Source: Microbacterium oxydans
GTDB taxonomy: Bacteria > Actinomycetota > Actinomycetes > Actinomycetales > Microbacteriaceae
Assembly (NCBI RefSeq): GCF_900095745.1
Contig: NZ_FMIR01000005.1
Span: 1-64,000 of the forward strand
DNA: 64,000 nt
Direction of reading: 5' to 3'
Shown here: positions 19,317-22,594 of the stretch, in pieces
Layout of the letters: every line of letters begins with the position of its first letter
How positions within the stretch are numbered: the stretch's first letter is position 1
Program-made: the position numbers and the translations under genes
The notes under the pieces: generated by a model
The model's database searches: none
Told to the model about the DNA's origin: nothing
The model's input: only the letters and a program-made list of their open reading frames with translations

Positions 19317-21359
19317 TCACCCGAGCACGGCGAGGAAGCTGTCATACCAGGACGCCATGACCTTCGTGGCCGTGTGGGCGAGGGGCACGCGCACCGGCGT
19401 GCTGAAGGTGCCGGTGGTGGTACCCGCCCCCGCCCCGCCGGTGTCGTTCAGCCCGGCGAAGTAGACCTCGCCCGACTCGAGCAGGAATACCGTCGAGTCG
19501 TTGCCCATCGCGACATCGGTGGCGACGGTACCCGCCGGCAGTGCGACCGGGGTGAGCGTCGCGCCCGGCGCGGCCGAGCTGCCGGTGCCCTGGGAGCTGC
19601 TGGTGTTGGCGCCGAGTGCGTAGACCGTGCCGTCGGTCATGATGACCAGCATCCGGTACTGCCCGACGACGACCTTCGCCGCAGTCTTCCCCGCCGGGAG
19701 CGTCTTCTCCGCGAGATAGAACGTGCCGCTGCCGCCGTAGGCCGTCGTGCCCGCCGTGAACAGTCGGCCGTCGTCGGTGACCACGGCCGACGACTGCCAG
19801 CCGATGCCACCGGAGGAGACGCCTGTGATGGGCGCACCCGGACCGGTGAGCATGAGCAGCCCCGCCGATCCGGCCGCGGCGCTCACGGATGCGCCCTGCG
19901 CGGAGTAGCCGTAGCTGTCGGCGCCCGCGACCATCGCCTGCCCGTTGCTCAGCACCATGAAGACGGCGCCGAAGGGATTGACCTCGGCGGTGAGTGCGCC
20001 CGCGGGCATCGTGTAGTTGTCGCTCACGCGCTGCCAGTAGCGGGTGTTCGTGTAGGCAGCGCCGAAACCGTCGAGCTCGTTGATGCCGGTCGCCCACACA
20101 CCGCCCGCCGCATCGACCGCGACGGAGGAGAGCTGGTCCGTGCCGGTGCCGATGTGCGTGATGTTCCCGAGCTGCGCACCGGGGGCGGTGAGCGCGGCGA
20201 CGACGCTCGTGCGATTCGTGGCGGTGCCGTCGCCGATGATGCCGGAGGCGTTGTAGCCCCGCCCCCACAGATTGCCGTTCTGATCGGCGTAGAGCAGCGT
20301 GGAATAGCTGGAGCCGACGGCCGTGGCACCCGTGATGGTGAGGTTGTCCCAGAGCGGGACGGCGCTGGTCCGGGCGCCGGTGAGGTTGTCCGAGCCGGTC
20401 TGCCCCTGTCCCGAATATCCCCAGGACACCAGCGGCACCGAGGTGACGGGCTGCCCGGAGAGGATCGTGAAGGCGCGAGGGGACTCGACGCGCACCGGCC
20501 CCTGCGCGGGCTCGGAGCGGTTGGCGACGACGCGGAAGTCGACGGTTCCGGTCGCGCTGGTGGTGAATGTGCCTTCCCCGAGGTCGGCGAACGTGCCCGA
20601 TTCGAACGCCAGGCCATCCGGGAGCACGATCGTCACCTCGGCGTTCGGGACGACCGCATTCGAGGCGATGTCGCGGACGGTGACCGTGTACACCGGCGTG
20701 CGTCGGCGGTCCTGCAGCGCCGGCGGCAGCGACGACGTGGCCGAGGTGCCGACGGGGATCACGCGGGAGATCGGCAGCGTCGCCGCGGTCAACCCGGTCA
20801 GCGTGAGGGTGTGCCCCAGGTCGCAGGTCGCCGAGCCGAGCCCTCCGCTCAGGGTCCCGACCGAGACGGTCCGGGTCGCGACATCCGATCGCCATTCTGT
20901 CCCGGCACGCGTGGACACCGCTGCCCCTACGCTCGCGCCCGCGAGTGGCCCCAGCGCGGCGTCGAGTTCCGACGCCGTCGCGGTGAAGGTGAACGTGTAG
21001 AGGCCGGCGGCCGGCCCGGTCACCACGATGCGATCGGTCGGCGCTTCGAAGACGGTTCCCGCGGTCACCGAGAAGGCGAGCAGCATCCGTGCCGGGTCGT
21101 CGAGCACCGACGTCCAGGTGAGCGTGACCCCGCTCATGGCGCCGTTCGTTCCCTCGTTCTCCGTCGTACAGGCGGTGATGGTGGGGACGTCAAGGGTTCC
21201 GGCTTCGACGGGTCCGCGCGCGTACTGCGCATCGAGCCACGCCGCCTCCGTGATGCCGAGCAGCGCATCACCCCGCACACCGGCGGGCGACGCCGTGAGG
21301 GTCATCGCGGCGAGGCAGGCGGCCGTCAGCAGCAGGAGGAGTCTGCGGAGCACCCTCAT
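19317..21359 (-). CDS. Exported RCC1-like beta-propeller surface protein
   Basis: A 680-residue exported protein. The signal peptide (LRRLLLLLTAACLAAMTLTASPA) is followed by beta-sandwich regions (residues about 40-330) including an Ig-like linker (VRDIASNAVVPNAEVTIVLPDG), then RCC1/ATS1-type repeats to the end with the G-x-x-YALG/LWGRG pattern. There is no LPXTG or membrane anchor, so it is secreted or held by a partner. It starts by ATGA overlap with the signal peptidase gene and is the last gene of the four-gene surface operon. RCC1-like bacterial surface proteins are of unknown function. Confidence 0.75.
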   Translation of the reverse strand: MRVLRRLLLLLTAACLAAMTLTASPAGVRGDALLGITEAAWLDAQYARGPVEAGTLDVPTITACTTENEGTNGAMSGVTLTWTSVLDDPARMLLAFSVTAGTVFEAPTDRIVVTGPAAGLYTFTFTATASELDAALGPLAGASVGAAVSTRAGTEWRSDVATRTVSVGTLSGGLGSATCDLGHTLTLTGLTAATLPISRVIPVGTSATSSLPPALQDRRRTPVYTVTVRDIASNAVVPNAEVTIVLPDGLAFESGTFADLGEGTFTTSATGTVDFRVVANRSEPAQGPVRVESPRAFTILSGQPVTSVPLVSWGYSGQGQTGSDNLTGARTSAVPLWDNLTITGATAVGSSYSTLLYADQNGNLWGRGYNASGIIGDGTATNRTSVVAALTAPGAQLGNITHIGTGTDQLSSVAVDAAGGVWATGINELDGFGAAYTNTRYWQRVSDNYTMPAGALTAEVNPFGAVFMVLSNGQAMVAGADSYGYSAQGASVSAAAGSAGLLMLTGPGAPITGVSSGGIGWQSSAVVTDDGRLFTAGTTAYGGSGTFYLAEKTLPAGKTAAKVVVGQYRMLVIMTDGTVYALGANTSSSQGTGSSAAPGATLTPVALPAGTVATDVAMGNDSTVFLLESGEVYFAGLNDTGGAGAGTTTGTFSTPVRVPLAHTATKVMASWYDSFLAVLG

Positions 21360-22594
21360 CGCCGCCCCCTCGGGCTCGGGCGTCGGCGGGCGAGGAGCGC
21401 GATGCCGATGCCGACCAGCACCGCGGCGGGCGCGGCGAGCAGCGCCAGACCGGAGCCACCGGTCGGAGGCAGCTCCGATTCGCCGTCGATCCCGGTGTCG
21501 ACAGTGTCTCCGCCCGCAGTGGCCCGCACCGTGACCGAGGCGCCCGCCGCGCCGGCCTCGGGAGACTGCGGCTGCGCCGTGAGAGCCACCTGCACGTACG
21601 CGACGGCCGGTGTCGCGGTGGAGAGCAGGTCTTGCCAGACGCCGTCCGCCGGCAGCGGCCCCTCCGGACGCAGCAGCCGTTCGCCCGAGGGGCAGGTGCC
21701 GTCGGAGAGCCACGGCTGCCCGCAGGCGCGGACCTCGGCCCGCAGTCCGAACGCCGGGTCGCCCACCGACGAGATGGCGATGGCGAGGTCGCCGTCAGCC
21801 GGGGCCGCCGACGCGTCCACGTCGAGGTGCCAGCGCAGCGGGACCAGCGGGTCGAGCGCCTGCACGCCGGCACCGGCGAGGTCGGAGCGCACGCTGAGGT
21901 AGTCCGATCCGGTCGCCGCGGATGCCGGTGCCGGAGCGAGAGTCGCGCTCGACGCGCAGACCGCCAGCACGAAGAGCGCCGCCAGCACACGGGCTCCCGC
22001 CGCCGCGCGGCCCGCGCTCTCCCCGTCGCCGGGCGGGTCCACCGCGTCGGCAGGCTCCGGGGGCGGGGCTTCTGCGTCGTCAGTCCGCGGCCGCCTCGGC
22101 CAGAAGGCCCAGCCGACGAGGAACGCGGTGGCGAGGGTGAGCGATCCGAGCACCCAGGGGTTGCCGAACTGTGCGATCACCGGTGCGAGATACGGCACCG
22201 AACCGCGCACGATCCGCGCCTCGGCGAGCGTGTACGGCATCGGGTCGTCGACGACGTTGGCATCTCCGCGCATCGTGATCACGCGTTCTGCGGCTACGCT
22301 CCCCTCGCCGACGCTCGTGACCCGGTGCGTGATCGGCAGCGTCCCTGCCCGGTCGACGGTCACGACGTCGCCGACGACGATCTCGGATGCGGGGATCCGC
22401 TGGACCAGTGCGACCGAACCCGCCGGGATCGTGGGAGACATCGAGCCGGTCTTGAACATCATCAGCGAGTAGCCGCCCGTGAACGCGAGCAGGGCGAACA
22501 CGAGGCACGCCGCTCCGCCGACCGCCGCCGCGGCCAGCAGGATGTCACGGACGAGGCGGCCCGTCCGTGCAGCACGGCGCGAGAAGGCCGTCAT
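21356..22594 (-). CDS. ER-type signal peptidase I continuous with an LPXTG-anchored ectodomain
   Basis: A 412-residue protein in two parts. Residues 1-175 are an S26B (SipW/ER-type) signal peptidase: TM about 16-40, catalytic Ser51 in TGSMSPTIPAGS, His90 in PITHRV instead of the bacterial Lys, Asp111 in MRGDANVVDD, and a second TM (VLGSLTLATAFLVGWAFW). After a Pro/Asp-rich linker, a sequence that looks like a second signal peptide (VLAALFVLAVCASS, ending APASA) leads into an ectodomain ending LPPTG (375-379), a hydrophobic helix and RRRP: a sortase signal. An in-frame GTG at 21988 with GGGAG upstream could separately start the ectodomain. It overlaps both neighbouring genes, and its expected substrates are the two alternate-signal proteins upstream. 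Confidence 0.85.
   Translation of the reverse strand: MTAFSRRAARTGRLVRDILLAAAAVGGAACLVFALLAFTGGYSLMMFKTGSMSPTIPAGSVALVQRIPASEIVVGDVVTVDRAGTLPITHRVTSVGEGSVAAERVITMRGDANVVDDPMPYTLAEARIVRGSVPYLAPVIAQFGNPWVLGSLTLATAFLVGWAFWPRRPRTDDAEAPPPEPADAVDPPGDGESAGRAAAGARVLAALFVLAVCASSATLAPAPASAATGSDYLSVRSDLAGAGVQALDPLVPLRWHLDVDASAAPADGDLAIAISSVGDPAFGLRAEVRACGQPWLSDGTCPSGERLLRPEGPLPADGVWQDLLSTATPAVAYVQVALTAQPQSPEAGAAGASVTVRATAGGDTVDTGIDGESELPPTGGSGLALLAAPAAVLVGIGIALLARRRPSPRGRR

Follow-up and report, generated by a model that had tools for sequence, protein, structure and literature searches.

Two Bacillus systems invite comparison with the gene reported here, a fusion of a SipW-type signal peptidase with an ectodomain of sortase-substrate type, found in Microbacterium oxydans (assembly GCF_900095745.1, contig NZ_FMIR01000005.1, positions 1 to 64,000; this whole stretch of 64,000 nucleotides is referred to as the window). 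The tapA-sipW-tasA operon of Bacillus subtilis has a dedicated SipW-type peptidase beside its substrates, together with an immunoglobulin-like (Ig-like) partner; according to PMC10151520, TapA has a complete V-set Ig fold, its gene overlaps sipW (stop/start), and it is proposed to start TasA filaments. The sipW-tasA/calY system of Bacillus cereus also combines SipW with two TasA-type subunits and adds a chaperone-like assembly factor, CapP; the accessible part of PMC13082335 describes it as sortase-independent and reports no fusion.

At the Microbacterium locus the partner follows the peptidase, to which it is fused or, in split relatives, which it overlaps from downstream. Unlike TapA, the ectodomain carries an LPXTG anchor and a signal of the ordinary A-X-A kind, and it matches no solved structure by sequence; searches with the profiles of the operon's substrates likewise found no TasA chain. 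A search of the open literature by titles and abstract openings showed no paper on a system of this kind in Microbacterium or its relatives; journals by subscription lay mostly outside this search.

We consider it moderately probable that the gene is a stable fusion of the peptidase of a SipW-type export operon with a surface protein whose signal is cut in trans, which is linked to the wall, and which serves as a TapA-like filament base. The fusion, its split counterparts, the operon, and the signal and anchor motifs are established; the remaining steps are discussed below in the conditional.

One frame with a peptidase and an ectodomain bearing a sorting signal

The fusion gene (P0002; 21356..22594, minus strand) is a single open frame that runs from ATG 22594 to TGA 21356 and translates into 412 residues: a SipW/ER-type (endoplasmic reticulum-type) signal peptidase, an internal signal peptide and an LPXTG-anchored ectodomain. 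A reading of the window made from its letters and open reading frames (the sequence-only reading) had placed a peptidase continuous with an ectodomain at 21356-22594, and both the coordinates and the continuous frame are borne out. It named no strand; the protein it described is encoded by the minus strand, and the plus-strand frame at the same coordinates does not give it.

Signal peptidases I of the SipW/ER type (S26) are defined by a serine box, a histidine (not lysine) partner and a GDAN box. All three are found in residues 1-166 (22097..22594, minus strand): Ser51 in TGSMSPT, His90 in LPITHR and Asp111 in GDAN, between predicted helices at residues 3-40 and 146-163. S51, H90 and G110-D111-A112-N113 do not vary among 36 fused sequences (that of the window is one of them), and we presume catalytic roles for Ser51, His90 and Asp111. 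TIGR02228 is matched at E <=0.01 by 36/36 fused sequences (best 6e-18). The likeness to the archaeal/SipW-type peptidases I of TIGR02228 and NF046067 lies in the TGSMSP serine box, the LPITHR histidine box and the GDAN box; the window protein differs in scoring under both cut-offs (30.5 bits against 190 for NF046067, the Bacillus SipW family) and in carrying 246 further residues.

The peptidase domain is followed on the same strand by a linker (residues 167-202; 21989..22096), supported by its substitution pattern and by the gene break of split relatives; the basic n-region of the internal signal stands at its end. The putative signal peptide itself comprises residues 203-226, VLAALFVLAVCASSATLAPAPASA (21917..21988, minus strand), with likely cleavage after ASA (226/227), as suggested by its sequence and by the retention of A-X-A. 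The ectodomain (residues 227-374; 21473..21916, minus strand) is modelled by AlphaFold2 as a beta-sandwich, mostly beta with a C-terminal helix (mean predicted local distance difference test score, pLDDT, 89.1); among its invariant columns are Cys291 and Cys301. It is followed by a sorting signal (21359..21472, minus strand) consisting of LPPTG (residues 375-379, nt 21472-21458), a transmembrane segment at 382-403 and the Arg-rich tail RRRPSPRGRR. This is the full motif set of a sortase-anchored protein, shared with the staphylococcal MSCRAMM adhesins and other LPXTG sortase substrates; the Gram_pos_anchor family gives 14.4 bits, under its cut-off of 20, and 16/72 homologues match it at E <=0.1.

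In the full-length predicted structure, helices long enough to span a membrane lie at residues 3-40, 146-163, 197-218 and 382-403. This model suggests an in-out-in-out-in topology with the linker in the cytosol.

Fused and split forms among relatives

The search covered 118 relatives (62 with a match) and 366 congeneric genomes, of which 220 gave a match, often a weak one. The loci taken were the best matches, 80 further regions and 80 named loci (the best 80 of 275 relatives); weak matches were not fetched, so the survey favours close homologues. Downstream frames of 80 codons or more, up to 2.5 kb away, were scanned with a profile of the ectodomain. All 211 peptidase loci include 135 split and 61 fused ones, 14 with no ectodomain found and 1 open to the contig edge. 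After removal of identical-stretch copies, 168 non-redundant loci remain: 103 split, 51 fused, 13 with no ectodomain found (one of them, L144, is cut by the contig end) and 1 off the contig.

The ectodomain is thus a separate protein in most relatives examined. The sequence-only reading had raised the question whether homologues are split into two genes, and had named a lack of split genes among relatives as evidence against itself; 103 of the 168 loci show that split genes do occur. In 88/102 split loci the ectodomain start lies at offset -1 to the peptidase stop (an RTGA overlap), under a rule that takes this start whenever it is present; the starts are ATG in 83 loci and GTG in 19. One further split-type locus (L093, contig 1 of genome G129) has an in-frame stop inside the peptidase frame, either a broken copy or a sequencing error, and was kept out of the junction count. 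By eye, the split ectodomains mostly show their own signal peptide, and the gene break falls between peptidase and ectodomain, where the fused linker sits. Since 103 of the 168 loci are split (usually overlapping) and 51 are fused, the two proteins form a standing pair in most loci examined.

It could be supposed that an assembly or sequencing error, or the loss of a stop codon, has produced an accidental readthrough in this strain only: the split form prevails among the relatives examined, and overlapping frames need little change to become joined. We regard this as having a negligible chance. One open frame is kept in genomes whose proteins are 95%, 93%, 77% and 61% identical, with all indels of the linker region in frame, and for this reason the fusion is not an assembly artefact. 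The closest named match among the best 80 of 275 relatives is that of Microbacterium sp. MYb45 (95% identical). The fused form is found in records with the names Microbacterium, Leucobacter, Plantibacter, Mycetocola, Cryobacterium, Glaciihabitans, Arthrobacter, Paeniglutamicibacter and Nesterenkonia, and since fused relatives span several genera, a single recent fusion in this strain was rejected together with the artefact. The 51 non-redundant fused loci also cluster: on a peptidase-domain tree the fused label (47/153 rows) requires 9 changes, where shuffled labels need 40.2 on average, and 0/500 shuffles were as low. The fusion is real, conserved, stable across several genera and moderately unusual, and the joined form looks like an old one.

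The fused/split state requires 4 parsimony changes on the 153-row peptidase tree, 3 on an 88-row peptidase tree and 1 on the ectodomain tree, all of these being quick trees with many weak branches. When the 14 fused loci of the window's clade were constrained to group together on the 88-row peptidase tree, the approximately unbiased (AU) test gave p 0.775, the constrained tree being better than the free one. Six loci (L028, L121, L122, L123, L124 and L125) have the peptidase with no ectodomain detected downstream; the five of them that are in the peptidase tree group together beside fused loci, an apparent loss of the partner.

Eleven split loci (L002, L008, L009, L042, L043, L046, L047, L054, L148, L154 and L155), among which is the paralogue of the window's own genome, combine features of both forms. 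Their peptidase tails are 29-69 residues long, against a median of 15 in 37 main split loci, and RRDRR stands one residue from the peptidase end in 11/11. The peptidases have the window's fused clade as their nearest group, with a mean identity of 0.68 (0.61 with the main split group), and are placed with it at 98 in the Shimodaira-Hasegawa-like approximate likelihood ratio test (SH-aLRT). Their ectodomains are of the main split type (identity 0.51, against 0.28 to the fused clade), and the ectodomain tree rejects placing these loci in one group with that clade (AU p 0.0003). The long RRDRR tails first resembled relics of fission; judging from the ectodomain tree, a module swap appears at least as likely. 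The simplest, still provisional reading of these sequences is that peptidase and ectodomain modules were swapped across the linker in the 11 loci.

The internal signal peptide and its probable processing

The sequence-only reading had described the segment after the peptidase domain as resembling a classical signal peptide. As a motif this is correct: the basic n-region, hydrophobic core and A-X-A of a cleavable Sec signal peptide are present. From the hydrophobic core to eight residues past the profile's ectodomain start, A-X-A is found in 50/51 fused loci (46/47 in the non-redundant set); 1000 residue shuffles averaged 36.0 and reached at most 47. A basic residue occurs in the 12 residues before the core, or at core position 1, in 45/47 fused loci. 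The ratio of nonsynonymous to synonymous substitution rates (dN/dS) over four pairs is 0.34-0.77 in the linker, 0.47-1.39 in the signal, 0.07-0.22 in the peptidase and 0.14-0.47 in the ectodomain, with few changes in the short linker and signal segments.

Two routes to separate products had been offered, and the first to be considered is internal initiation, in which the same frame would yield a second product from GTG 21988. The codon, number 203 of the gene, is indeed in frame; it is preceded by a GGGAG that ends five bases upstream, and it is kept in the relatives with 95% and 93% identity. It is lost at 77% and 61%. Similar Shine-Dalgarno-like (SD-like) matches within the same upstream interval accompany 4/24 in-frame ATG/GTG/TTG codons of the fusion gene, the true start included, and about 12% of such triplets over the 64-kb window (273/2174 and 255/2180 on the two strands); the GGGAG is weak evidence because this match is near its chance frequency. 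Among 47 non-redundant fused loci an in-frame start, sought from 20 codons before to 1 after the core start, is present in 27 and missing in 20; 5 have both a start and an SD-like match, and in just 2 of those does a basic residue follow it. Translation from codon 203 would also give a signal peptide with no positively charged n-region. Neither the 47 fused loci nor these four relatives show a conserved start codon with an SD sequence at the internal signal. Internal initiation was rejected on these grounds (an unconserved start, an SD match near chance, no positive n-region), and two products made from GTG 21988 are very unlikely.

The other route is proteolysis. That 50/51 fused loci retain A-X-A speaks for a cut that yields a peptidase in the membrane and an ectodomain anchored to the wall; the fusion protein is probably a processed polyprotein in which the internal signal is still cut, and the ectodomain half is probably freed at this secretion signal of its own. 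Were the signal never cut, the ectodomain would stay tethered to the peptidase in a four-span membrane chain, whether or not sortase linked it later. The hydrophobic segment could act as a plain membrane span, and linker and signal evolve faster than both domains; however, the A-X-A count exceeds that of all 1000 shuffles, and the equivalent segment is an N-terminal signal peptide in split relatives. We therefore think an uncut chain improbable.

As to the cutting enzyme, the sequence-only reading had proposed a self-processing polyprotein. The SipW-type domain would then cut the internal signal of its own chain, in cis or on a neighbouring copy, and so free the ectodomain. Peptidase and signal do stand on one chain, the residues S51, H90 and G110-N113 are invariant in the 36 fused sequences, and the four-span topology suggested by the model would put the active site and the A-X-A on the same face of the membrane. 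Nevertheless, the internal signal has no W-S/N-D-x-E motif, unlike both SipW-type substrates of the operon (P0003 and P0004, described below), and P0002 gives no match to TIGR04088 at E 0.1, whereas P0003 and P0004 do. By eye the internal signal looks like the A-X-A signals, of ordinary kind, that split relatives carry. In the genome, two type I signal peptidases of the ordinary sort score over the cut-off and could cut in trans; there is also one sortase match. Self-processing is on balance unlikely, though a little less so than the uncut chain; given a signal of ordinary type, cleavage by a type I peptidase is more likely.

The operon and the presumed role of the ectodomain

Two genes upstream encode SipW-type substrates. 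Substrate 1 (P0004; 23234..23800, minus strand, 188 residues) has AAWNDSEFA after its signal core, matches TIGR04088 (cognate_SipW) at 26.9 bits against a cut-off of 19, and has AGGAGG upstream of ATG 23800. Substrate 2 (P0003; 22591..23214, minus strand) probably starts at GTG 23214; it matches TIGR04088 at 29.4 bits and, weakly, TIGR04089 at 22.8 bits (cut-off 60), and its TGA overlaps the ATG of the fusion gene (ATGA). Compared by hhalign, the two substrate families align with one another along almost their entire length (E 5e-47). TIGR04088 has 5 matches in the genome, of which 4 are over the cut-off, 2 at each of two SipW-type operons, and none in P0002. A home-made motif for SipW-type signals occurs upstream twice in 62, once in 13 and not at all in 1 of 76 named loci; downstream it occurs once in 36 and not at all in 40. 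From the gene order and the families we infer that the N-terminal half is a dedicated SipW/ER-type signal peptidase for the two upstream substrates.

The window's ectodomain matches no Pfam family besides the anchor; its 72 homologues match 15 other families with 1 to 3 members each (best E 0.0022), and NCBIfam finds on 36 fused sequences the peptidase, anchor and C-terminal sorting-type families only. With the ectodomain model, Foldseek gives 3 matches at E <=0.001, with template modelling scores by query of 0.30-0.35. VIA-align places SdrG, SdrD, ClfA, FnBPA and their kin first: the ten best rows have Z 8.0-8.7 over 121-128 residues at a root-mean-square deviation of 3.3-3.6, with just 8-12% identity. 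We take the aligned part of these adhesins to be their N3 Ig-like domain. The 50 best rows of Foldseek and VIA-align contain no TasA or TapA chain, an absence that carries no weight against kinship. The ectodomain would stand in a place similar to that of TapA: it is a peptidase partner modelled as a beta-sandwich, with Ig-like best matches of middling Z, and its gene overlaps that of the peptidase in split relatives, RTGA being found in 88/102 of them. By this analogy the ectodomain would be TapA-like in role but not a TapA, and Ig-like at best guess.

Our preferred account of the fusion joins these parts as follows. Two proteins of one SipW-type export operon are joined in one gene, the C-terminal half being a surface protein with a sortase signal, which in most relatives examined appears as a separate gene usually overlapping the peptidase stop. 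The break point would lie in a presumably cytosolic loop, so that the signal peptide of the ectodomain becomes a third membrane span; since this span would keep its N-in orientation, the topology should not be disturbed by the fusion. The full-length chain would be inserted in the membrane. Cleavage of the internal signal at A-X-A would follow, the most likely enzyme being a type I signal peptidase of the ordinary kind that acts in trans. This would leave the peptidase in the membrane and release an ectodomain for sortase to attach to the wall, where the ectodomain would most likely be the anchored base or assembly partner of a filament of the upstream substrates, as TapA is for TasA in B. subtilis.

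A number of points weigh against this account. The window's peptidase stays below the curated cut-off of TIGR02228 (46.2 bits, E 4.2e-12, against 51.85) and the gathering score of PF10502 (17 bits, E 0.0061, against 22.9). Cleavage is deduced from motif retention; the region of the internal signal is Ala-rich, so that shuffles already give a mean of 36/51 for A-X-A; the fused loci in this count are related rather than independent; and 1/51 has no A-X-A, while L026 and L027 have long and unusual stretches there. Topology, cleavage, the cutting enzyme, wall linkage and the existence of a filament are all inferred. On the 88-row peptidase tree the AU test rejects neither all split loci as one clade (p 0.326) nor all fused loci as one clade (p 0.33); the tree favours no one number or direction of fusion events. 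Up to 12 of the 168 loci have a peptidase with no adjoining ectodomain found, so the partner appears to be dispensable in some lineages.

The role of the ectodomain and the nature of the operon's substrates meet further objections of this kind. The best VIA-align Z of 8.7 is middling, as Z 7 to 8 is the tool's typical best for models with no clear relatives, and other beta-sandwich proteins follow close behind. A sequence search of the PDB with the ectodomain profile gave two hits (E 0.52 and 1.4) and no matching solved structure. The same search with the profile of substrate 2 gave 7 hits (E 0.1-0.82), no TasA chain among them, and that with substrate 1 gave no hits and thus no TasA chain; the upstream substrates would be TasA-like by signal type and gene order, features that also suggest that they may form filaments, and the missing match slightly lowers our confidence. 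Compared by hhalign, the ectodomain is collinear with substrate 2 over 96 columns (E 0.0008), at a probability of only 24%; its score of 27.4, which speaks for kinship, exceeds those of one reversed control (11.2) and of 59 column shuffles (mean 10.5, maximum 18.6). Against substrate 1 it is at noise level (probability 0.7%, score 17.6, shuffled maximum 18.5). Kinship of the ectodomain with the operon substrates is a lead, not a result.

It is tempting to go further and propose a bacterial cellular polyprotein, in which a dedicated peptidase carries, behind an internal signal, the wall-anchored base of the very filament it helps to build, a base distantly related to the substrates of that same peptidase, with modules exchanged between fused and split operons; we offer this more tentatively than the account above and consider it doubtful as a whole. 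Gene fusion as such is ordinary; what is uncommon is a conserved cellular fusion with a cleavable-looking signal inside it. Fused and split forms offer a natural comparison in which to ask whether a dedicated signal peptidase must be supplied in step with its wall-anchored partner or be physically tethered to it. The locus also hints that actinobacteria may have SipW-type surface assemblies in a sortase-anchored version.

Downstream, the TGA of the fusion gene overlaps the ATG of an RCC1-repeat protein (ATGA; 19317..21359, minus strand; RCC1_2 at 42.8 bits, cut-off 22). It gives no NCBIfam match at E 0.1, TIGR04088 included. Its N-terminus has EAAWLDAQYA, which resembles a SipW-type processing site, and the protein may be a further SipW-type substrate.

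The same genome has a second SipW-type operon (L223; contig 14, about 3771-749, minus strand), and thus carries both the fused arrangement, in the window, and the split one. The peptidase of L223 is 63% identical to that of the fusion gene and is followed by a separate LPXTG-type ectodomain gene with an ATGA overlap; two TIGR04088 substrates lie upstream, and one protein downstream has EAAWLDAERA.

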